Positions 2,263 through 12,816 of a DNA stretch of 12,816 nt are shown in pieces. A program made the translations under genes and the position numbers. Each line of letters opens with the position of its first letter. The first letter of the stretch is position 1. The notes beneath the pieces are model-generated. The model saw only the letters and a list, made by a program, of their open reading frames with translations. It had not been told where the DNA came from and searched no databases. This DNA comes from an uncultured Methanosarcinales archaeon (GTDB taxonomy: Archaea > Halobacteriota > Methanosarcinia > Methanotrichales > Methanotrichaceae), in contig CALMJN010000438.1 of assembly GCA_937864385.1 (NCBI GenBank), forward strand, positions 1 through 12,816. Reading direction: 5' to 3'.

Positions 2263-3873
2263 ATGATTGATTTGGCGCCTTTTATCGAGATACGGGATTT
2301 AACAGTTCGGTTTGGAGACGTAGTGGCTCTCCGCAATATAAATCTGGTTATAGAAGAGGGCAAATCGGTGGGAATCCTGGGAAGGAGCGGCTGCGGCAAG
2401 AGCGTGCTCATGCATGTCCTGCGCGGAGTGGAGTCATTTCCCGACATATCCGGAAGCGTGATCTTCCATGTGGCCAGGTGTGAGAAATGCCACCATGTGG
2501 AGATGCCCAGCAAAGCCGGTGAGAGTTGCCGCTGCGGAGGAGTTCTCAGCCCGGTTGATGCCGATTTTGTAAAACTGGATATCAACGATCCTCTTCGCCG
2601 TGATATCACCCAGAGAATTGCCATCATGCTGCAGAGGACATTTGCCCTTTACGGCGATGAGAGAGTGATAACCAACGTCATGAGGGCCGTGGAGGAGAAG
2701 GGTGATACCATGAGCGTCCACCGGGCCGCTGACCTTCTGGATGAGGTCAACCTCTCTCACCGTCTGATGCATGTGGCCAGGGAGCTATCCGGGGGAGAGA
2801 AACAGAGGGTGGTCCTGGCTCGCCAGCTGGCCAAGTCGCCCATGATTCTCCTGGCGGATGAGCCTACCGGGACGCTCGATCCGGGCACAGCCAAGGTGGT
2901 GCACGAATCCATCAAGAGGGCTGTCAAGGACTTCCACATGACCCTGGTCATCACCAGCCATTGGGAAGATGTCATGATTGAGCTCACCGACAAAGCCATA
3001 CTTTTAGATGAGGGCGAGATCAAGGCGGAGGGCAAGCCCACCGATATAGCCGCTAAATTCCTGGGCATGGCCGGGACCCTGGGCAAGAGAGAGGAGGTAG
3101 AACTGGGGGCGCCCATAATCAAGGCCAACGGCCTGGCCAAGAGATATATCAGCATCGACCGGGGAGTGGTCAAGGCGGTGGACACCGTCAGCCTGGAGAT
3201 CAATGAAGGGGAGATCTTCGGCCTGGTAGGCGTCTCGGGAGGGGGCAAGACCACCCTCTCCAAGATGATAAGCGGCATAATAACCCCCACAGGCGGCAGC
3301 ATATCGGTCCGGGTGGGAGACGATTGGGTGGATATGACCGTGCTGGGCTCCAATGGACGGGGCCGGGCCACGAAATACATTGGCGTATTGCACCAGGAGT
3401 ACACCCTTTATCCCTCCCGAAGCGTGATCGAGAATCTGACCGAGGCCATTGGCCTGTCCCTGCCCTTCGAGCTGGCGGAGAGAAAGGCCATTCACACCCT
3501 GGAGACGGTGGGATTCTCGGAGGAGCATGCCGAGGAGGTCCTATCCAAGATGCCCGACGAGCTTTCCGAGGGAGAAAGGCATCGAGTGGCCATGGCTCAG
3601 GTACTGATCAAGGAGCCGAGAATTGTGATCCTGGATGAGCCCACCGGTACCATGGATGCCATCACCAAGATCGAGGTTACCAAGTCCATCTTGAACGCCC
3701 GCCAGGAATTGGGGGAGACCTTTGTCATCGTCAGCCACGATATGGACTTTGTCAGGAATGTCTGTGACAGGGCCATGCTCATGAGAAACGGTCAGGCTAT
3801 ATTCACTGGACTGCCCAGCGAGGTCCTGGACAAGATTACAGAAGAAGAAGAGAAAGAGATGCTGGGGAGTTAA
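2263..3873 (+). CDS. atwA: Methyl-coenzyme M reductase system component A2 (twin ABC ATPase)
   Basis: A2 is the soluble ATPase of the complex that reductively activates methyl-coenzyme M reductase by bringing its Ni-F430 to Ni(I). Two ABC nucleotide-binding domains lie in tandem in 536 residues. Domain one has Walker A GRSGCGKS (40-47), signature LSGGEKQR (175-182), Walker B ILLADE (195-200) and the switch histidine in ITSHW. Domain two has Walker A GVSGGGKT (323-330), signature LSEGERHR (434-441), Walker B IVILDE (454-459) and IVSHD. Domain one carries an insertion with four cysteines, CxxC then CxC at residues 73, 76, 89 and 91, which could hold zinc or an iron-sulfur cluster. No membrane segment is present, so this is not a transporter. 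ATG at 2263 is preferred because homologues start a few residues before FIEI; a GTG at 2248 would add five residues. It is the first gene of the operon. Confidence 0.93.
   Translation: MIDLAPFIEIRDLTVRFGDVVALRNINLVIEEGKSVGILGRSGCGKSVLMHVLRGVESFPDISGSVIFHVARCEKCHHVEMPSKAGESCRCGGVLSPVDADFVKLDINDPLRRDITQRIAIMLQRTFALYGDERVITNVMRAVEEKGDTMSVHRAADLLDEVNLSHRLMHVARELSGGEKQRVVLARQLAKSPMILLADEPTGTLDPGTAKVVHESIKRAVKDFHMTLVITSHWEDVMIELTDKAILLDEGEIKAEGKPTDIAAKFLGMAGTLGKREEVELGAPIIKANGLAKRYISIDRGVVKAVDTVSLEINEGEIFGLVGVSGGGKTTLSKMISGIITPTGGSISVRVGDDWVDMTVLGSNGRGRATKYIGVLHQEYTLYPSRSVIENLTEAIGLSLPFELAERKAIHTLETVGFSEEHAEEVLSKMPDELSEGERHRVAMAQVLIKEPRIVILDEPTGTMDAITKIEVTKSILNARQELGETFVIVSHDMDFVRNVCDRAMLMRNGQAIFTGLPSEVLDKITEEEEKEMLGS
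3864..3869 (+). promoter_or_regulatory. Ribosome-binding site setting the TTG start of mmp3
   Basis: GGGGAG inside the last codons of atwA lies 6 nt before the TTG at 3876. No ATG or GTG is placed as well, so this site decides the start. Confidence 0.6.
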
Positions 3874-3875
3874 TT

Positions 3876-5399
3876 TTGAGAGTCTTGGTCGATGGCAGAG
3901 AGCTAGAGCTATCTGTCGGCGCAACTCTTGCTGACGCCTTGGGCAGTAGCGGGGCTTATATCGCCCCTGGAGCAATAGTAGGAGTGGTTAAAGGCCGGGG
4001 AGAGAAGTTCCGTCAGACCAACTCCTATTGGCTGAGTACGAGTAAGGGCAAGCTGAGAATCGAGCTTGCAGAGAGCGAACTGCTGAGCATCTGGCATGAG
4101 AGCGTGGACAGAATATCCGGTTCAACTGTAAGATGGTCTTCCGCCGATGGCGTCGCCTTCGGGCTTTTTCCTTCTGAGATCTCTTTTTCCCGGGACGCCC
4201 AGGAGTACAACCGCTGGGAGGTTGTGCTGGGGGCAGCCGGTTTTGATCGGGAGAACACCCAGATCATCTTCATCCGCAGAAGGCATACCGCAGCTTATGG
4301 CACTCCCAAAGAAGGCGGAGTAGTGGGCCATGTGGTGGGGGGAAAGAACACTTTGGACCGTCTGGCGGCAGGCGATCGAATAGAGAGCATAGAGCCCATT
4401 GTGGAATGGCAGGAGATAACTGAGAAGCAGGCTACCCTGGACCTCTCCATGGCACTGGAGGAGGGGATGGAGATCTTCACCACTGTTGAGGCAGAGCTGA
4501 ATGAGGATGCACCCCTGGGTGCAGAGTTTTTCCTGGCCCTTACCCGGGAGGGAACCCTCACCGTCGATGCCGTCTCCAGCTCTTATACATCCTCCGATAT
4601 GCTGCTGAGCGAGCCCATGATCTTCGAGAACCGCGAGCCACGCCTGGAGGGTGCCGTGACCGTACGAACCGCCGGCAGGGGTCTCGGCAGGATATTCGTC
4701 TACAAGAAGGATCGAACCTCCAACCCCGCTCACTCCGTGGTGGCTCGAATCATATCCGGAATGGATATGATCAAGCTGGCAAGCCCGGGTGAGAGAATCA
4801 CCATAAAAGTCCGTCCGGAGCGGATAATGCTTCTGGGCAAAAGCCTGAAAGACGCCCTGTCCCAGATGCAATCCTTGGGAATCCAGGTCCAGGCAGAAGG
4901 CTACCAGGGAGAGGATGCGGTGGTGGTCAAGCAGGATCCCGGAGCGACCATGGCCATATTGAAGAATAAGGCCGTAGTGCTCCATTCCATGCCTTCCAGC
5001 CGCTTGGTAGCGGTAAAACTCTACAGCGATCAGGCCCCCAAGACTCTGGACTACTTCCGGCATGTAACCGGTCTCAAGGAGAGGCCGCTTGGACCTCTGC
5101 CTGTCTTTTTTGTTTATGAGAATACCCTTCTCTTCAAGCCGGATGTGGATGCCACAAGCTACAAGGAGCTTTTGCCGGAGAACAAGCCCGAGGGACCTGT
5201 TCCAGCCGGTTCTATTGCCGTTTCCAACACCGTTTCCAAGAAGATGGGCATGGTGGGGGTCAAGCTGGCAGAGGACAAGCGCTACGGCCCATCGGGAGAG
5301 AAGTTCGAGGCCACCAATATAATCGGACGGGTGCTGGAACCGGAAAAGCTCAGAGATGTGAAGGAAGGGGAGACGGTTTACATCCTGGAGGTGCGCTGA
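3876..5399 (+). CDS. mmp3: Methanogenesis marker protein 3
   Basis: Mmp3 is a conserved methanogen protein found with A2, McrC, Mmp7 and Mmp17 in the MCR activation complex. The 507-residue product begins with a ThiS/ubiquitin-like fold (MRVLVDGRELELSVGATL, residues 1-18). It also has two regions resembling cyclophilin-type peptidyl-prolyl isomerases. The first is at about 200-300, with APLGAEFFLALTREG and a GRGLGRIFVYKKD loop. The second is C-terminal, with VAVKLYSDQAPKTLDYF at about 372-388 and a conserved GPSGEKFEATNIIGRV near the end. There is no cysteine in the whole protein, so it cannot itself ligate an Fe-S cluster through thiolate; a scaffold or chaperone role is more likely. The TTG start at 3876, 2 nt after atwA, is supported by a Shine-Dalgarno and by the ThiS-like strand beginning at once. 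Translation is probably coupled to atwA. Confidence 0.92.
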   Translation: MRVLVDGRELELSVGATLADALGSSGAYIAPGAIVGVVKGRGEKFRQTNSYWLSTSKGKLRIELAESELLSIWHESVDRISGSTVRWSSADGVAFGLFPSEISFSRDAQEYNRWEVVLGAAGFDRENTQIIFIRRRHTAAYGTPKEGGVVGHVVGGKNTLDRLAAGDRIESIEPIVEWQEITEKQATLDLSMALEEGMEIFTTVEAELNEDAPLGAEFFLALTREGTLTVDAVSSSYTSSDMLLSEPMIFENREPRLEGAVTVRTAGRGLGRIFVYKKDRTSNPAHSVVARIISGMDMIKLASPGERITIKVRPERIMLLGKSLKDALSQMQSLGIQVQAEGYQGEDAVVVKQDPGATMAILKNKAVVLHSMPSSRLVAVKLYSDQAPKTLDYFRHVTGLKERPLGPLPVFFVYENTLLFKPDVDATSYKELLPENKPEGPVPAGSIAVSNTVSKKMGMVGVKLAEDKRYGPSGEKFEATNIIGRVLEPEKLRDVKEGETVYILEVR

Positions 5400-5400
5400 G

Positions 5401-5817
5401 ATGCTGGTCACCAAGTATGTGATAACTTCCTCAGAGTCGAATATCCTTCCCTCTGATATCGCCATGAAGATCTATGGCTCGAAGTATGATGTCACCGTAA
5501 AGGAGACATGCATGGGTGTGACTATCAATGGCGAAGAGGAAGTCATAGATGAGCTGGTCAAAGAGATCCGAGCTCTGGACCCGGCGGGAATTTTCATCAA
5601 GGACCGGGGCTTTCCGCCAGGAGATCCCAGGCGCTGCCGGGGCCGGAGGGGCGGTGGCGCCAGGCCCGGCTTTTATATGATTGAATCCGAATCCAAGATC
5701 CTGCCCATGATCTCCCGGGCCCTGACCAGCGAAGGCGAAATCCCCGTCCTTGCTGAAAAGAAGAGGCCTCTTTCCCCGGGCAGGCTGCAAGAGATAATAA
5801 AAGAGGATTTATCCTGA
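5401..5817 (+). CDS. mmp6: Methanogenesis marker protein 6
   Basis: This 138-residue protein matches Mmp6, a small conserved methanogen protein of unknown biochemical function. Visible hallmarks are a TVKETCMG segment with Cys37 and the invariant-looking FPPGDPRRCR at about 71-80 with Cys79. An Arg/Gly-rich stretch, GRRGGGARPGF (81-91), comes directly after. The ferredoxin-like alternation of strands and helices around these motifs is my reading only. ATG at 5401 starts 1 nt after the mmp3 stop. GGAGGTG at 5387-5393 gives a 7-nt spacer and lies within the final mmp3 codons. The two spaced cysteines and the basic glycine-rich loop suggest binding of metal, a nucleotide or RNA, or a partner protein, but which one cannot be told. 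Identification rests on family resemblance and operon position. Confidence 0.88.
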   Translation: MLVTKYVITSSESNILPSDIAMKIYGSKYDVTVKETCMGVTINGEEEVIDELVKEIRALDPAGIFIKDRGFPPGDPRRCRGRRGGGARPGFYMIESESKILPMISRALTSEGEIPVLAEKKRPLSPGRLQEIIKEDLS

Positions 5818-5826
5818 GGTAAATCA

Positions 5827-6264
5827 ATGGCTAAAGTTATCGTTTATCCTCCTACCAGCACCATTCTCTCGGACCTCGTGGCCAGAATGGGCCATAAGGC
5901 CCTTGTGGTTCCCGAAGCAGTTCGCAAGTTGGTTACAGAGAGCGGTATAGATTCTCCTCCCCTGAATATGACCCCTGAGGAGCCCAAGAAGGGGCTGCGC
6001 TATGCGGCGGTGGACGTGCCTTCCGGGGTGAGAGGACGGATGTCACTGATCGGCCCCATCATCGAGGAGGCCGAGGCGGCCATCATAGTGGAGGACCCCG
6101 GCTGGCTCACCGGCTGCGCCGGATGCTCTCGAACCAATGAGCTGGTGCGCCTACTCATCCGAACCAAAGGAGTTCCGGTGCTGGATCTGGCCTACCCCAG
6201 CGATGATGCAGAGGCTAGGGTATTTGTGCATAAGATCAGGTCCTTCCTGGAGGGATTGAATTGA
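5827..6264 (+). CDS. mmp5: Methanogenesis marker protein 5
   Basis: The 145-residue protein resembles Mmp5, another methanogen-restricted protein of unknown function. It begins [18 protein letters not shown], has a central [21 protein letters not shown] region (70-90) and then [14 protein letters not shown] with a CxxC at Cys97 and Cys100. The end, [16 protein letters not shown], resembles a Rossmann-type strand-loop-helix. The CxxC is the obvious candidate for metal, cluster or thiol chemistry. GAGGT at 5816-5820, overlapping the mmp6 stop, places ATG 5827 at a 6-nt spacer. The stop overlaps the start of mmp15 by 4 nt (TTGA), so the two are translationally coupled. The order mmp6-mmp5-mmp15 supports the identification. 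Confidence 0.88.
6249..6255 (+). promoter_or_regulatory. Ribosome-binding site setting the TTG start of mmp15
   Basis: GGAGGGA lies 5 nt before the TTG at 6261 and within the end of mmp5. Start and stop overlap as TTGA. Confidence 0.7.
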
Positions 6265-7487
6265 TCAGAATAGCCCAGCTCTCCTGCGGTGCAGAGTACA
6301 GCGGAATTCAAAGGGAGATCGAGAGGGCGGCAGAGACGGTTGGGGCCAAGCTGGTTTATCCTGAGGTCTCTTTGGACGATATACTCAATGTGGAGAATAC
6401 ATTCGGCGTCTCCGTATCATCAGGCGACCTGAATATGGCCATGGCCCGGGCGGTGCGCATTGTCCAGAATCCAGACCTCGCCGATGCGGTGATAGTCATG
6501 ACCTGCTTCCGCTGCGCTGAGGCGGCCATCATCCGATCCGAGATCAGAAAGTACATTCATGAAAACTCCAAGATTCCCGTCCTGAGCTACTCCTTTACCG
6601 AGAGGACCACGGCGGAGACGCTTCTGACCAGAATGGAAGCGCTGGTCACCACAGTCAAGTACCGGGGCCTCTTGGCCCGGGAGAAGCAGACCGGGCTGAC
6701 CGCCGGAATCGACTCCGGCTCCACCACCACCAAGGCGGTGGTTATGAAAGACAACCAGGTCATAGGCACGGGATGGAATCCCACCACCGAGGTCTTGCAG
6801 AGCGCTGAGGATGCCCTGACTGCCGCCCTCAAGATGTCCGGGGTGGCCAGAGAGGAGCTCCAAGCCACTGGCGTCACCGGATATGGGCGGTTTCTGGTGG
6901 GAAAGCACATCAACGCCAAACTGGTCCAGGAGGAGATCACAGTCAACTCCAAGGGGGCCGTCTTTTTGGCCGACGCCCAGAGGGGTCCGGCTACGGTCAT
7001 TGATATCGGCGGCATGGACAACAAGGCCATCTCGGTGCAGGACGGAATTCCCGGCGGCTTTACCATGGGCGGAATCTGTGCCGGAGCTTCCGGCCGGTTT
7101 TTGGAGCTGACGGCCAAGCGTCTGGGTGTGGACATCACTGAGCTGGGCAAGCTGGCGCTGAAGGGCGACTATCAAAACGTGGCCATGAACAGCTACTGCA
7201 TAGTTTTCGGCACCCAGAGCCTGGTCAACAATCTGGCCATGGGCCGAAAGCCGGAGGACGTGGCCATGGCCGCCTGCCACTCTGTGGCGGAGCAGGTCTA
7301 TGAGCAGCAGCTACAAGAGGTGGAGGTTAAAGAGCCGGTGATCATGGTGGGTGGGACATCATTGATCGAGGGGCTGCCCAAAGCCATGGAAGAGCTTCTT
7401 CAGATCAAGGTCACTGTTCCCAAGTACGCCCAGTACATCGGAGCGGTGGGTGCGGCGCTGCTGGTCTCGGGGCTGCTGGAGGAATAG
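6261..7487 (+). CDS. mmp15: Methanogenesis marker protein 15, BadF/HgdC-type ATP-dependent [4Fe-4S] activator
   Basis: The 408-residue product joins a methanogen-specific N-terminal domain (about 1-140) to an ASKHA ATPase of the BadF/BadG/HgdC family. In the ATPase part the phosphate-1 loop is DSGSTTTK (151-158), phosphate-2 is DIGGMDNK (248-255) and the adenosine motif is MVGGTS (362-367). Cys273 in [11 protein letters not shown] and Cys313 in NSYCIVFG match the two cysteines that, in dimeric family members, hold one [4Fe-4S] cluster between subunits. Such proteins use ATP hydrolysis to push an electron to very low potential, which is what Ni(II)-F430 reduction needs. A direct role in MCR activation is inference. 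The N-domain adds Cys9, Cys82 and Cys85 (CFRC), a possible second cluster or acceptor site. Phosphate-2 reads GGMDNK rather than the more usual GGQDxK. Confidence 0.92.
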
Positions 7488-7489
7488 AG

Positions 7490-8062
7490 ATGGACCCAAT
7501 GGAGGTCTTCAAGATCGAGGTTACGGGGGAAGAGGAATACGGGGCGAAGAAGTACCGTGAGATCATCATGGACATCCTGCAGGACCTCGGCCTCATACGG
7601 TCCATAGGCAAGCTATATGTTTATGTGGATATAAAAAAGCCGTTCTTTTCCGTCTTCGGCCTACTTCGCTCCGGAATTCCTCCTCTGACGGCCAATGATG
7701 TGGGCGATGTGATGAAGGTCCAGGGCGGCTATCAGATCAAGATCAACGATGAAGAGCATATGGCCGACCTGCTGAAAGTGCTCTGGGAGCATTACGGCAG
7801 GGAGAGGGTGGAGCAGCCGGCCAGGGATGTGGTGATCATCGCTTCGGACAGCTCGCCCGGCGAGCTGGTGGTGGCGGACCTGGAGGCGGAGTTTTTGCAG
7901 GATCTCACCGATGCCCTGGTCAGGATTGCTCCGGAGGGCTTTCGCAACCGGCGCAATGAGATGACCAAGGACAGCTTCCTTTTCATAGCTGCCGAGGAGA
8001 GTCTGACCCCTGAGATGATATCTGAGATCAAAGAGAAGATCCGGGAGATGGAGAATGCTTGA
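7490..8062 (+). CDS. mmp17: Methanogenesis marker protein 17
   Basis: Mmp17 is a conserved methanogen protein that purifies with A2, McrC, Mmp3 and Mmp7 in the MCR activation complex. This copy has 190 residues, no cysteine, no membrane segment and no recognisable catalytic motif. Conserved-looking parts are IKKPFFSVFGLLRSG (48-62), a GGYQIKI strand, and an acidic SSPGELVVADLEAEF stretch. The absence of cysteine points to a structural or adaptor role. ATG 7490 has GGAGGA at 7478-7483 with a 6-nt spacer; an in-frame ATG at 7499 is possible but worse placed. The 3' end overlaps mmp7 by 8 nt, so the two are almost surely translated together, as befits partners in one complex. Confidence 0.9.
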   Translation: MDPMEVFKIEVTGEEEYGAKKYREIIMDILQDLGLIRSIGKLYVYVDIKKPFFSVFGLLRSGIPPLTANDVGDVMKVQGGYQIKINDEEHMADLLKVLWEHYGRERVEQPARDVVIIASDSSPGELVVADLEAEFLQDLTDALVRIAPEGFRNRRNEMTKDSFLFIAAEESLTPEMISEIKEKIREMENA

Positions 8063-8978
8063 GCCTGTGATGTTCACGGGAGGGTTGTACAAGCACGACC
8101 TGGTAGTGGAGCTGGTGGAGGATCTGGGAGGATACATCCTGCAGAAGAATATGACTCAGACCGAGATCATACTCTTAATTCTGATTCCCGTGGAAGACAT
8201 GCCTGTCTTGCAGGCGCTGGTCAAGGAGCTGAGAGGGGAACTGGTTCGTGCCCCCCTGGCCGGAACTGAGGTGGCAGTGATAACGCCTACCCTGGCCATT
8301 CATCATCTGCCTCATGTGGCCTGCGATATAGCCGAATATCTGCGCCGGCATGGCTCCAAGACCAATATGATTGGCATGGCCAGAGGAGTGGGCCGGGAGA
8401 TCGCCCAGATCAATGAATATGAGAGCGCACTCATAAACGAGCATGATGCAGCGGTGTTCATCTACGGCAACTTTCAGGATTGCATCAAGAAAAAGGGGGA
8501 CCTGTACCGGAACCTCAGCGTTCCGGTGGTGGTCACCGGAGGACCGGAGATCGATCCCAAGGAGCTGCCTTATGCCTTCGACTATGTCCAGAACATAGGG
8601 AGGATGGCCCATAGATCGAGAAAGGCCACGGAGATAGGATCTCTGGACAAGATCGTGGATGCTGTGGGCCGGGCACTGGATAAGACCAGGGCTTCAATAG
8701 CCAAGGATCCTCTCACCACCTCTCCGCCCCGGATCATGGACGCGGTGCGGGAGCAGGTGCCGGAGGTGGAGTTCTCCTACTCCCCCCTTCCCATCGCCCT
8801 CAACCTGAACGGACTGCGGATCAAGCTTCCCTTCAGCCGCTTCAAGGATGCAGTGGCGGCGGTGAGCTTCGATGAGGGGGTTCGCCTGGGTGAGATCGCC
8901 ACCATAAGGCCCTCCCAGATGAAGGACTATATACTGGTTAGGATATTGCCCGCTTCAGAGACCGGGTTTGTATTTTAA
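8055..8978 (+). CDS. mmp7: Methanogenesis marker protein 7
   Basis: Mmp7 (307 residues) is a methanogen-specific component of the MCR activation complex, associated with McrC, Mmp17, Mmp3 and A2. The N-terminal half alternates strands and helices (MFTGGLYKHD at 6-15, then a hydrophobic EIILLILIPVED strand). It carries an AIHHLPHVACDIAEYLRRHG segment (81-100) and MIGMARGVG (105-113), then YGNFQDCIKKK (137-147) and PVVVTGGPEID. Only two cysteines occur, Cys90 and Cys143, with His83, His84 and His87 just before Cys90; these are the plausible metal or cluster ligands. The C-terminal third (about 245-300) looks like a separate small domain. ATG 8055 lies inside mmp17 with GGGAG or GGAG just upstream. 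It is the last clear member of the tight operon, and no strong terminator follows. Confidence 0.9.
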   Translation: MLEPVMFTGGLYKHDLVVELVEDLGGYILQKNMTQTEIILLILIPVEDMPVLQALVKELRGELVRAPLAGTEVAVITPTLAIHHLPHVACDIAEYLRRHGSKTNMIGMARGVGREIAQINEYESALINEHDAAVFIYGNFQDCIKKKGDLYRNLSVPVVVTGGPEIDPKELPYAFDYVQNIGRMAHRSRKATEIGSLDKIVDAVGRALDKTRASIAKDPLTTSPPRIMDAVREQVPEVEFSYSPLPIALNLNGLRIKLPFSRFKDAVAAVSFDEGVRLGEIATIRPSQMKDYILVRILPASETGFVF

Positions 8979-9041: not shown

Positions 9042-9494
9042 ATGGGCTTTGAGGATGAGCTGGATGCCATACTGGTCAAGGGCAAGGATAAGGCAGCGCA
9101 GGATATCCTGAAATCGATAGAAAGCACCTATGGGGAGGTCCCTTACGTCTTTCAGTTTATGAAGGACAGCCCGGAGATCTTCATCACCAAGGTGCTGCAC
9201 AACAATGCCATCCAGAGAAGCTCGGCTCTGGATGCCAAGACAATTGAGCTGATATCTGTGGCCGTCTCGGCGGCCATGAGATGCAGCCACTGCCTGAAGC
9301 TGCACATCCGCATCGCCGCCAATCTAGGCATCCCGGACGACCAGATCGCAGCCGCCGTTTTTCTGGCGGGAAATCTTGTCAATGCCAGCGTCCTGGCCAC
9401 TGCCACCCGGCATCTGGACGAGGAGAGGGATGTCTGCCGGGCCTGCGGCATCGGCAGCGGGACCTGCGAGATACATGGGGAAAGGCGGGACTGA
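9042..9494 (+). CDS. AhpD/carboxymuconolactone decarboxylase-family protein with a C-terminal cysteine tail
   Basis: The 150-residue protein has the all-helical AhpD-like fold signature. MRCSHCLKLHIRIAANLG (79-96) contains the redox motif CxxCxxxH (Cys81, Cys84, His88), and AVFLAGNLVNASVLAT follows. In characterised AhpD-type proteins the two cysteines act in peroxide or disulfide reduction; carboxymuconolactone decarboxylase itself lacks them, so thiol redox is the better guess. The last 20 residues add a second cluster, CRACGIGSGTCEIHG, with Cys132, Cys135, Cys142 and His145. This is unusual for the family and looks like a small zinc or iron site. The start at 9042 follows a purine-rich GGCAGGGAAGAG. 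The gene lies 63 nt after mmp7 on the same strand, so it may be read through from the operon, though this is not shown. Confidence 0.85.
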   Translation: MGFEDELDAILVKGKDKAAQDILKSIESTYGEVPYVFQFMKDSPEIFITKVLHNNAIQRSSALDAKTIELISVAVSAAMRCSHCLKLHIRIAANLGIPDDQIAAAVFLAGNLVNASVLATATRHLDEERDVCRACGIGSGTCEIHGERRD

Positions 9495-9516: not shown

Positions 9517-9525
9517 TTTTTATCT
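9517..9525 (+). promoter_or_regulatory. Candidate TATA box for the regulator-rlmH unit
   Basis: TTTTTATCT lies in the 74-bp spacer after the AhpD-like gene, about 45-52 nt before the ATG at 9569. The spacer is clearly AT-richer than its surroundings. The same T-run could instead help end upstream transcription, as oligo-T does in archaea. Confidence 0.35.
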
Positions 9526-9568: not shown

Positions 9569-9856
9569 ATGCCCGCAGAGGACAAGGATCAGGATCGTGG
9601 CTGGCAGGGGTCGGAGGGCCATCGCTTCGCCCTGGAGGTCCTGCAGCTCGCGCTGCGGCGGCAGATGCTCCGGCTGGTCGCCGGGGGTATGAAAGATAGA
9701 GAGCAGATCGGCCAGGCGCTCAAGCTCAGCCCTTCGTTGGTCGATTATCACCTCTTTATGCTGGAAAAAGCCCTGGTCGTCGAGAGATGTGAGGCGGGCT
9801 GGGAGGCCAGCCGCACCGGCCTGCTCTTTTTGGAGAAGGTGGAGAGCGGGGCGTGA
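9569..9856 (+). CDS. Small ArsR-like winged-helix transcriptional regulator
   Basis: This 95-residue protein is a minimal winged helix-turn-helix. After a polar start of ~18 residues come helix one (FALEVLQLALRRQMLRLVA), GGMKDREQIGQAL and the recognition helix KLSPSLVDYHLFMLEKA (52-68). A short wing (LVVERCEAGWEASRT) and a final helix follow. The SPSLVDYHLFMLEKALVVER pattern is close to the ArsR-type 'xVSxHLxxLExxGLV' rule. Only one cysteine is present (Cys74), so no CxC metal sensor is seen. The frame is open upstream into the AhpD-like gene, but ATG 9569, with CGAGGA five nt before it, is the natural start. Its stop overlaps the rlmH start (GTGA), so it is probably co-translated with rlmH. 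Its targets are unknown. Confidence 0.8.
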   Translation: MPAEDKDQDRGWQGSEGHRFALEVLQLALRRQMLRLVAGGMKDREQIGQALKLSPSLVDYHLFMLEKALVVERCEAGWEASRTGLLFLEKVESGA

Positions 9857-10335
9857 TCATCCGGATCATAGCCGTGGGCCGGCTGAGGGAGAGATACTGG
9901 CAGGAGGCGGCAGCGGACTATGCCCGGCGCATCCGCCCCTACGCCCGGCTGGAGATAGAGGAGGTGGCCGAAGCCCGGCTCAAGGATGGAGCCTCGGCAG
10001 CGGAGGAGAAGAAGGCCATGCAGGAGGAGGGGCGGGCCATCCTGGAGAGGCTGAAGGGGCATGAAGGAGCGGTGGTGGCCCTGGACCGTCAGGGCAGGAG
10101 CCTGGACTCTTTGCAGATGGCGGCATGGCTGGAGGAGATGATCCTGGAAGGGCGTGGCGATGTGGCCTATGTCATCGGCGGGTCGTTGGGGCTGGCTCCG
10201 GAGGTATTGCAGAGGGCGGAGTGCAGGCTCTCTTTTTCCAGGATGACCTTTCCCCATCAGATGATGAGGGTGATTCTGCTGGAGCAGATCTATAGGGGGA
10301 TGAGGATAATGAGAAAGGAGCCGTATCACAAATGA
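9853..10335 (+). CDS. rlmH: 23S rRNA (pseudouridine-1915-N3)-methyltransferase
   Basis: RlmH is a small SPOUT-class methyltransferase that adds a methyl group from S-adenosylmethionine to pseudouridine 1915 (E. coli numbering) in helix 69 of the large ribosomal RNA. The 160-residue length is typical. Visible motifs are ALDRQG (76-81), the glycine-rich knot loop VIGGSLGL (107-114) that binds the cofactor, the FPHQMMRVILLEQIYR helix (133-148), and the terminal EPYHK (156-160) that is nearly invariant in the family. GTG at 9853 is used: it overlaps the regulator's stop by 4 nt and gives MIIRIIAVGRL, the usual first strand. RlmH is widespread in bacteria and patchy in archaea. Pairing with a winged-helix gene looks like a local feature. 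Confidence 0.93.
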   Translation: MIIRIIAVGRLRERYWQEAAADYARRIRPYARLEIEEVAEARLKDGASAAEEKKAMQEEGRAILERLKGHEGAVVALDRQGRSLDSLQMAAWLEEMILEGRGDVAYVIGGSLGLAPEVLQRAECRLSFSRMTFPHQMMRVILLEQIYRGMRIMRKEPYHK

Positions 10336-12506: not shown

Positions 12507-12584
12507 GGGGGACCTCCGCACCTTCGACGTGGTGGTGGCCATGGACAGGGACAACCTGGCCGTCCTCGAGGAGATCTCCTCCGC
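12490..12584 (+). other. Stretch resembling part of a low-molecular-weight protein tyrosine phosphatase
   Basis: In the same frame as the methyltransferase, the translation RQIREGDLRTFDVVVAMDRD, followed directly by NLAVLEEI, fits the middle of low-molecular-weight tyrosine phosphatases. In that family a 'DFxxFDxVxAMDxxNL' segment follows the substrate pocket. It does not fit a methyltransferase motif IV, which would read FDxVxxNPPY. Neither the CX5R active-site loop nor the C-terminal DP motif is present, so this is at most a ~30-residue fragment. It may be foreign DNA joined at a chimeric point. The match is short and made by eye. Confidence 0.4.
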
Positions 12585-12618
12585 CGCCGGCGGCATTCCT
12601 GCGGCAAACGCGACGAAG
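12490..12618. other. Chimeric junction zone
   Basis: Left of this zone lies the archaeal methyltransferase on the plus strand. Right of it lies a high-GC fragment of an unrelated enzyme on the minus strand. Both genes are cut mid-domain in the zone, and between them is a short stretch like a third protein. No repeat, transposase or att-like site is seen. This is the pattern of an assembly or cloning join. Confidence 0.7.
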
Positions 12619-12816
12619 GCGAGGAGCATGCCGACCGACTTCCCCCCGATCAGGCCGGTCCCGATCATCCGCCTCCGGATGGCCCGCAGGTCGGAGGGGT
12701 CGAGCCACCGGGACGCCAGGTCGATCAGCCGCTCGTCCCGGGTCACCATCATCCGCAGGTCGCGGTGGAAGGTCCCGGTCCCCTCCTCGCCGGCGGACGC
12801 CCCCGGCGCCGCCTTG
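12618..12816 (-). CDS. Fragment of a PEP synthase/pyruvate phosphate dikinase-type protein, cut at both ends
   Basis: The minus strand is open from the right edge. It encodes a FHRDLRMMVTRDERLIDLA stretch, then RWLDPSDLRAIRRRMIGTGL, IGGKSVGMLLA. The IGTGLIGGKSVGMLLA run is the glycine-rich entry of the ATP-grasp nucleotide-binding domain in a PEP/pyruvate-dikinase-like family. The usual continuation (an ARAIL-type helix) is absent: after position 12618 the minus-strand frame reads FVAFAAGMPPAAEE, which does not fit. About 66 residues are visible. GC is strikingly high (45 of 60 bases in 12661-12720, 31 of 36 in 12781-12816), unlike the rest of the window. It probably comes from a high-GC bacterium. 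The true start lies beyond the edge. Confidence 0.7.

Follow-up and report, generated by a model that had tools for sequence, protein, structure and literature searches.

We analysed an archaeal contig of 12,816 nucleotides (nt) from an uncultured Methanosarcinales archaeon (CALMJN010000438.1; the window, which is this one whole contig of a 2.26 Mb genome in 489 contigs, 93% complete). It carries an operon for activating methyl-coenzyme M reductase (MCR), and our subject is the part that three of its products, Mmp15, Mmp5 and Mmp6, may play in that activation. An earlier reading of the window from its letters alone (the sequence-only reading) had described seven genes on one strand between 2263 and 8978, namely atwA, mmp3, mmp6, mmp5, mmp15, mmp17 and mmp7, with successive gaps of 2, 1, 9, −4, 2 and −8 nt. 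The open reading frames (ORFs) and their NCBIfam names, all seven of which exceed the curated cut-offs, confirm this description (Table 1), and the run of atwA and mmp3-6-5-15-17-7 by which we recognise an MCR activation operon is present. That reading ended the operon at mmp7; its seven genes are correct, but a conserved eighth gene, which is AhpD-like, was omitted. The run has no clear end at 8978, where the AhpD-like gene comes next after mmp7. All runs of at least five T between 2263 and 9494 are intragenic and the first beyond the eighth gene lies at 9517; a single transcript for the run is predicted as likely.

Table 1 Features of the activation operon in the window
Gene	Product or feature	Position	Strand	Evidence and remarks
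atwA	component A2, twin ABC ATPase of the MCR activation complex	2263-3873	+	TIGR03269 828.7 bits, cut-off 517.1
mmp3	MCR-associated protein, present in the solved activation complex	3876-5399	+	TIGR03268 551.1 bits, cut-off 234.45; TTG start, 2 nt past atwA
mmp6 (DUF2102)		5401-5817	+	TIGR03272 141.7 bits, cut-off 125.95; two invariant Cys, codons 5509 and 5635 (21/21)
mmp5 (DUF2112)	single alpha/beta domain resembling the HGD-D C-terminal domain	5827-6264	+	TIGR03271 209.8 bits, cut-off 140.25; invariant CxxC, codons 6115 and 6124 (29/29)
mmp15	putative HGD-D-like N-domain (Cys codons 6285, 6504, 6513) and archerase ATPase (Cys codons 7077, 7197; further invariant Cys 7275)	6261-7487	+	TTG start; TIGR03286 699.4 bits, TIGR00241 323.9 bits
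mmp17	activation-complex subunit, placed at the outermost Fe-S cluster in the solved structure (PMC12176620)	7490-8062	+	TIGR03291 138.0 bits, cut-off 67.1
mmp7	[8Fe-9S-C] cluster ligands (from PMC12176620)	8055-8978	+	TIGR03274 396.3 bits, cut-off 349.15
eighth gene	AhpD-like, carboxymuconolactone decarboxylase family	9042-9494	+	PF02627 52.4 bits, cut-off 23

The sequence-only reading had called for a comparison of gene order in relatives, and the order proved constant. The comparison used the best 80 of 548 loci found with Mmp15 (the named loci), which are near relatives because they are the best 80; the closest Mmp15 among them is 99% identical and comes from a Methanothrix metagenome-assembled genome (MAG), which makes a Methanothrix the most likely host of the window. 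All 80 keep the order for whichever genes are present, and 59 have all seven. Fourteen of the 21 incomplete loci end within 200 nt of the run, and seven do not (L100, L123, L127, L133, L138, L146 and L152). The gene immediately upstream of mmp15 is mmp5 in 79 of the 80; the remaining locus, L112, is truncated at mmp15. L152, from Ca. Argoarchaeum ethanivorans, retains mmp6-5-15 only. Among 40 further stretches hand-picked from Halobacteriota genomes outside the named loci, mmp5 is directly upstream of mmp15 in 31 and mmp15 stands alone in nine, all from families f6 and f24; other broken runs keep mmp5-mmp15 (f6, f16) or mmp3-6-5-15 (f11). The gene run is no chance arrangement.

Archerases are biological devices, powered by ATP, that push electrons to very low potential. 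An example belongs to benzoyl-CoA reductase (PMC11971306). The sequence-only reading left Mmp15 unassigned, a status that its sequence and fold do not bear out. TIGR00241 (acyl-CoA dehydratase activase) matches residues 147-401 of the Mmp15 ORF (323.9 bits, cut-off 125.4), PF01869 scores 240.1 bits (cut-off 31.5), and a sequence search of the PDB at E ≤ 1 returned five matches, all archerases. In the three alignments shown, including 1hux and 4eht, C272 and C312 (Mmp15 residues from here on count from codon 6264) align to the conserved archerase cysteines, which we take to be the ligands bridging one [4Fe-4S] cluster. Both are kept in 34/34 Mmp15 sequences and in 14/14 canonical archerases, the latter a comparison set taken from HGD-D loci. 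The two groups also share the nucleotide motif residues G148, D150, G152, K157, D247, G249, G250, K254, G363 and G364. Six cysteines are invariant in 34/34 Mmp15 sequences (C8, C81, C84, C272, C312 and C338), and 21 positions are fixed (≥ 95%) in Mmp15 where the canonical archerases mostly have a different residue; seven of these (269, 270, 274, 276, 316, 318 and 320) lie no more than 8 residues from C272 or C312. The AlphaFold model has a mean predicted local distance difference test (pLDDT) score of 90.2, and its sole segment below 50 is the cluster loop, 271-273. The ten PDB folds that best match it are archerases, led by MbdQ (template modelling (TM) score 0.92 over the target, 1.7 Å), with root-mean-square deviations (rmsd) of 1.7-2.2 Å for eight of them and 3.6-4.1 Å for DCCP-R. 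Judged by its sequence and modelled fold, Mmp15 is an archerase-type ATPase, of the family of ATP-driven electron injectors. One published gene table gives it as a 'CoA-substrate-specific enzyme activase' (PMC4153887).

All seven genomes examined from families f6 and f24 (L033-L036, L053-L058, L061, L062, L071, L072) carry two full-length Mmp15 paralogues. These form two well-supported clades under a midpoint root, as one old duplication of Mmp15 would give, and both paralogues keep all six cysteines; a heterodimeric archerase made from the two is possible. Our guess is that this lineage represents ANME-1 (anaerobic methanotrophic archaea, group 1) or alkane oxidisers. Nine Mmp15 copies are solo; for seven of them the neighbours were compared by eye and had nothing in common except similar membrane-protein frames at L057 and L072.

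The usual targets of archerases are the HGD-D proteins (HadBC, BzdNO and DCCP), which the archerase reduces. In a survey of 148 Halobacteriota genomes the HGD-D family PF06050 was found in 26; the same search gave no match in the genome studied here or in 76 of the 91 genomes with Mmp15, and a match in the other 15. Among the matches listed, 25 genomes had an archerase-only match, and 24 of them also had PF06050 (the exception is G121); the 435-bit Mmp15 fragment of G128 was excluded from this tally. The absence of an HGD-D match from most Mmp15 genomes implies that Mmp15 needs a different electron acceptor there. We had also considered Mmp15 as a member of an HGD-D system, which is ruled out by the same absence here and in the 76 genomes.

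A candidate acceptor lies in the operon itself. We compared profiles of its proteins with an HGD-D profile built from 35 sequences, each E-value referring to one comparison only. The N-terminal domain of Mmp15 (Mmp15-N, residues 57-129) matched with E 3.1e-6 and Mmp5 (residues 68-144) with E 1.4e-5; both matched one identical C-terminal stretch of HGD-D, and Mmp15 C84 and Mmp5 C97 both align on an HGD-D cysteine found in 35/35 sequences. The remaining operon proteins showed no HGD-D likeness in this comparison. As controls, seven other neighbourhood profiles, including the ATPase domain of Mmp15, reached E 0.026 or worse, the best of 100 column shuffles per query gave 0.0073 (Mmp15-N) and 0.01 (Mmp5), and reversed queries gave 0.071 and 0.098, respectively. 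Trimming the HGD-D profile to the C-terminal domain extended the alignments to residues 1-131 of Mmp15-N and 1-144 of Mmp5. Between Mmp15-N and Mmp5 themselves the match covered 36 columns at E 4e-4 (probability 35%), against a best value of 0.0079 in 100 shuffles. The Mmp5 model (pLDDT 83.0) has the same order of strands and helices as that of Mmp15-N, and a Foldseek search with it against 350,542 PDB chains ranked BzdNO 1st (probability 0.93), HadBC 3rd (0.90) and DCCP 8th (0.84). Neither Mmp5 nor Mmp15-N, both single domains, reaches the cut-off of the multi-domain family PF06050 (28.4 bits); from their sequences they appear to resemble one HGD-D domain without being members of the family. 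Taken together, the profiles and models are moderate evidence that the two are distantly related to HGD-D. In BzdN a double-cubane cluster is located between two such alpha/beta domains (PMC11971306); this analogy therefore suggests that Mmp15-N and Mmp5 could flank one iron-sulfur (Fe-S) cluster face to face.

Mmp6 is tied to Mmp5 by a natural fusion. Family f5, which we guess to be Archaeoglobi, has three genomes (G063, G092 and G127) in which the Mmp6 and Mmp5 matches fall within one open frame, and the two frames scanned each encode one protein with Mmp6 first and Mmp5 second, the Mmp6 part scoring 117 and 120 bits, slightly below the cut-off of 126.

Across the 148 genomes, 91 had Mmp15 over the cut-off, 88 had McrA (a match in G119, E 2.2e-4, having been dropped) and 87 had both; Mmp5, Mmp6 and Mmp7 were found in 90, 92 and 92. 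Mmp15 occurs without McrA in G047, G054, G103 and G142, which are 61-89% complete, and without Mmp5 in G093. McrA occurs without Mmp15 only in G027, where a likely assembly gap accounts for the absence, since its mmp6 match sits at the edge of a contig. It should be noted that this co-occurrence is expected, because the 'methanogenesis markers' were defined by such a pattern (PMC3226654). Divergent extra McrA copies occur together with a second Mmp7 (185 to 356 bits) in G007, G025, G027 and G045; elsewhere a single Mmp7 accompanies several McrA copies (e.g. G082, G118 and G147).

MCR makes nearly all biogenic methane, and the route by which cells reduce its nickel cofactor has been called a major gap: the free cofactor lies at about −650 mV and ferredoxin at about −400 mV, which is higher (PMC12176620). 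The sequence-only reading named A2, Mmp3, Mmp7 and Mmp17 as activation partners, rightly, as the solved activation complex contains all four (PMC12176620). In this 2025 structure A2 holds two ATP, and three [8Fe-9S-C] clusters, whose carbide is unproven, lead from the Mmp7/Mmp17 surface to the nickel cofactor F430 (PMC12176620). Activation in vitro required Ti(III) citrate and ATP; dithiothreitol (DTT) failed and activity was low, for which reasons the authors expect further Mmp factors (PMC12176620). In the genome studied here Mmp7 has H83, C89 and C142, kept in 24/24 homologues, which are taken as the published Methanococcus maripaludis ligands H84, C90 (a possible ligand) and C143 (PMC12176620), offset by one and matched by number, not alignment. 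A2 has C69, C72, C85 and C87, present in 22/22 homologues and probably a zinc site. A McrC-like gene (L002, G000:C271:1651-1986) lies on a contig different from that of mcrA (C429), beside a frame that by eye resembles phosphoglycerate mutase; also by eye, it has a histidine and a cysteine spaced like the published McrC ligands H49 and C55.

The operon is already known, and so is the idea that extra Mmp proteins aid activation. The seven genes were tabled together for Methanohalophilus mahii in a 2011 profiling paper (PMC3226654, Table 1), the Methanomassiliicoccales carry the same run (PMC4153887, Table 5), and the Discussion of the Nature 2025 paper argues that extra Mmp proteins are necessary for activation (PMC12176620); a claim to the cluster as a new discovery is ruled out by these three sources. 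Beyond the Halobacteriota, published coverage of the cluster includes Methanothermobacter (PMC12176620) and the Methanomassiliicoccales (PMC4153887). The sequence-only reading proposed Mmp5, Mmp6 and Mmp15 as assembly or electron-delivery factors for activation; electron delivery is plausible, but the argument had already been published for an equivalent cluster (PMC12176620). The reading of Mmp15, Mmp5 and Mmp6 as a split archerase module lacking an HGD-D partner was not found among the open-licence PMC papers listed by our searches.

We lean towards reading Mmp15, Mmp5 and Mmp6 as a split, dedicated archerase module that would feed the [8Fe-9S-C] chain of Mmp7 and McrC. This builds on what was observed: protein family, predicted fold, cysteines, gene order, co-occurrence, the absence of HGD-D from most genomes and the Mmp6-Mmp5 fusion. 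From these we infer the clusters of the Mmp15 module, its dimer, its use of ATP and the transfer to Mmp7. The operon would then encode two distinct ATP machines. A2, of the ABC type, would bind MCR and help it to open. A pair of Mmp15 would share one [4Fe-4S] cluster, and ATP hydrolysis would drive an electron to very low potential and on to Fe-S centres on the Mmp15 N-domain and Mmp5, which would replace the HGD-D/double-cubane partner and have Mmp6 as their own partner. The electron would enter the outermost Mmp7 cluster at the Mmp17 face and pass by way of McrC to F430. That this split archerase/double-cubane machine is the natural ATP-driven electron source of the chain is a stronger claim, and one that we hold only tentatively, as possible rather than probable.

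Several observations weigh against the split module, beginning with the HGD-D likeness, which is weak at the level of single sequences. In a Pfam-wide scan of 29 Mmp5 sequences HGD-D was the first non-self family, yet it matched only 2/29 (best E 0.0014), and among 20 Mmp15-N sequences it matched one (E 0.07), behind five other families. Foldseek gave Mmp5 no E-value below 0.001 (best 0.019, TM 0.43, rmsd 7.1 Å), an unrelated microtubule protein ranked second, and a flavodoxin ranked fourth with an E-value (0.038) close to the best. The weak Foldseek E-values, the nearly equal flavodoxin and the Mmp15-N scan would suit an alternative in which Mmp5 and Mmp15-N are ordinary small Rossmann or flavodoxin-like domains that have come to look like HGD-D by convergence, Mmp15 then passing electrons straight to Mmp7 or to another partner; we consider this unlikely, as each of the two matches one and the same HGD-D domain independently of the other, with its cysteine aligned and beyond the controls tried. 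PDB sequence searches with the Mmp5 and Mmp15-N profiles likewise gave nothing significant (the DCCP chain 7yyl_C was the second of two matches for Mmp5, E 1.3), and Mmp15 C8 lies two columns off an HGD-D cysteine in the trimmed-profile alignment. The genomes and loci compared belong to one phylum. Nor do its genes always stay together. Five loci (L123, L127, L133, L138 and L146) have mmp5 as the first gene of the run and no mmp6 in the 616 to 9,538 nt before it, so that mmp6 is not a constant neighbour of mmp5 and a strict mmp6-5-15 unit is ruled out; and in the five f6 genomes examined one Mmp15 copy adjoins mmp5 and the second is solitary.

The biochemistry of M. maripaludis adds to these points and bears on two further explanations. 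Mmp15, Mmp5 and Mmp6 are not listed among the proteins co-purified with tagged McrC in the available text of PMC12176620, and the smaller complex activates MCR when given Ti(III) citrate and ATP (PMC12176620). AMP-PNP also moderately increased activation (PMC12176620), because of which the effect of ATP could run via A2 only. ATP might then act through A2 alone while ferredoxin reduces the Mmp7 clusters directly, with Mmp15, Mmp5 and Mmp6 clustered for co-regulation and serving another MCR-linked task, for instance the repair of MCR or F430 after oxidation. The function of the minimal complex agrees with this, the authors themselves suggest that ATP could raise the potential of F430 (PMC12176620), and co-occurrence with McrA leaves the step unspecified. 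We nevertheless find this explanation quite improbable: Ti(III) citrate is artificial, the low activity and the failure of DTT are ascribed to missing auxiliary proteins (PMC12176620), and a ferredoxin route gives a conserved ATP-driven electron injector no task. The three proteins could instead build or load the [8Fe-9S-C] clusters, the archerase powering insertion or maturation of the NifB product on McrC and Mmp7 before activation. Their being unlisted in a purified complex already loaded with clusters would fit this, as would the invariant cysteine sets if they served a scaffold, and nifB comes after the mmp cluster in Methanothermobacter marburgensis (PMC12176620). On the other side, nifB was not found among the 12 window proteins scanned, the archerase dimer of benzoyl-CoA reductase serves the catalytic dimer as its electron activator (PMC11971306), and the available text of PMC12491067, on NifB and cluster assembly, names no archerase; we rate this account as fairly unlikely, though worth keeping in view.

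If the split archerase module is what these genes encode, MCR activation would use two ATPases, A2 for opening and Mmp15 for injecting electrons, and would unite nitrogenase-type clusters and an archerase within one ancient system. It would explain the origin of the very low-potential electrons for MCR, a step testable by named genes and residues where the published assay still relies on an artificial reductant (PMC12176620). It would also point to proteins worth co-producing when MCR is expressed heterologously, and to a candidate target for curbing methane emission.

The eighth gene encodes a protein of the carboxymuconolactone decarboxylase family in which E67, C79, C82, H86 and the C-terminal C140 are invariant in 18/18 sequences (numbered from codon 9048); it has the arrangement E-x11-CxxC-x3-H, which we take to be the AhpD-like motif. 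Strong orthologues (≥ 188 bits) occur in 52 of the 148 genomes, always on the same strand and downstream of mmp7, 43 of them within 200 nt of it and the farthest 2,685 nt away (measured between profile matches). A further 15 genomes with only a weaker match (≤ 116 bits) were not counted, and families f6 and f16 are absent from the 67 genomes that have any match at E 1e-15. Of the 80 named loci, 42 carry the gene. No description of it as part of the run was found among the open-licence PMC papers listed by our searches, and we can only guess at a role in thiol-disulfide chemistry or in protection from peroxide. The chromosome of Methanothrix MAG 280 (CP086218.1; L097, L100) carries the run twice: one copy has atwA and lacks the eighth gene, and the other has the eighth gene and no atwA within 7.6 kb upstream.

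Elsewhere in the window, the intergenic stretch 5' of atwA holds stem-loops followed by T runs (2116-2150) and a TATA-like ATTTAAAGC near 2180, and an in-frame GTG at 2248 is a possible alternative start of atwA. Rfam matched nothing in the window. An RlmH-type 23S rRNA methyltransferase above its NCBIfam cut-off (9853-10335) comes right behind a short ArsR-like helix-turn-helix protein. At about 12540-12816, by eye, a long forward-strand frame resembling a methylase stops and a different reverse-strand frame runs to the contig end, possibly a misassembly.

Compared with known systems, the operon holds the same genes in the same order, judged by consecutive identifiers, as Methanohalophilus mahii (PMC3226654) and the Methanomassiliicoccales (PMC4153887), whose run additionally includes mcrC (PMC4153887); neither source, in its available text, proposes a function for Mmp15, Mmp5 or Mmp6. 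The A2, Mmp3, Mmp17 and Mmp7 of the M. maripaludis activation complex (PMC12176620) are encoded here too, and the Mmp7 ligands appear conserved. In M. maripaludis, however, the extra Mmp genes are dispersed (PMC12176620), whereas here the run is shared with Mmp6, Mmp5, Mmp15 and the AhpD-like gene. With the archerases HgdC, HadI, DCCP-R and MbdPQ of benzoyl-CoA reductase, Mmp15 has in common the predicted ATPase fold, the nucleotide motifs and both cluster cysteines; unlike them it adds an N-terminal cysteine domain, has 21 distinctive positions and occurs in most genomes without an HGD-D partner. Finally, Mmp5 and Mmp15-N resemble the C-terminal alpha/beta domain of the HGD-D proteins HadBC, BzdNO and DCCP (with a double-cubane [8Fe-9S] cluster in BzdN and DCCP), with one cysteine aligned, but they are single domains on two separate proteins and fall below the Pfam cut-off.

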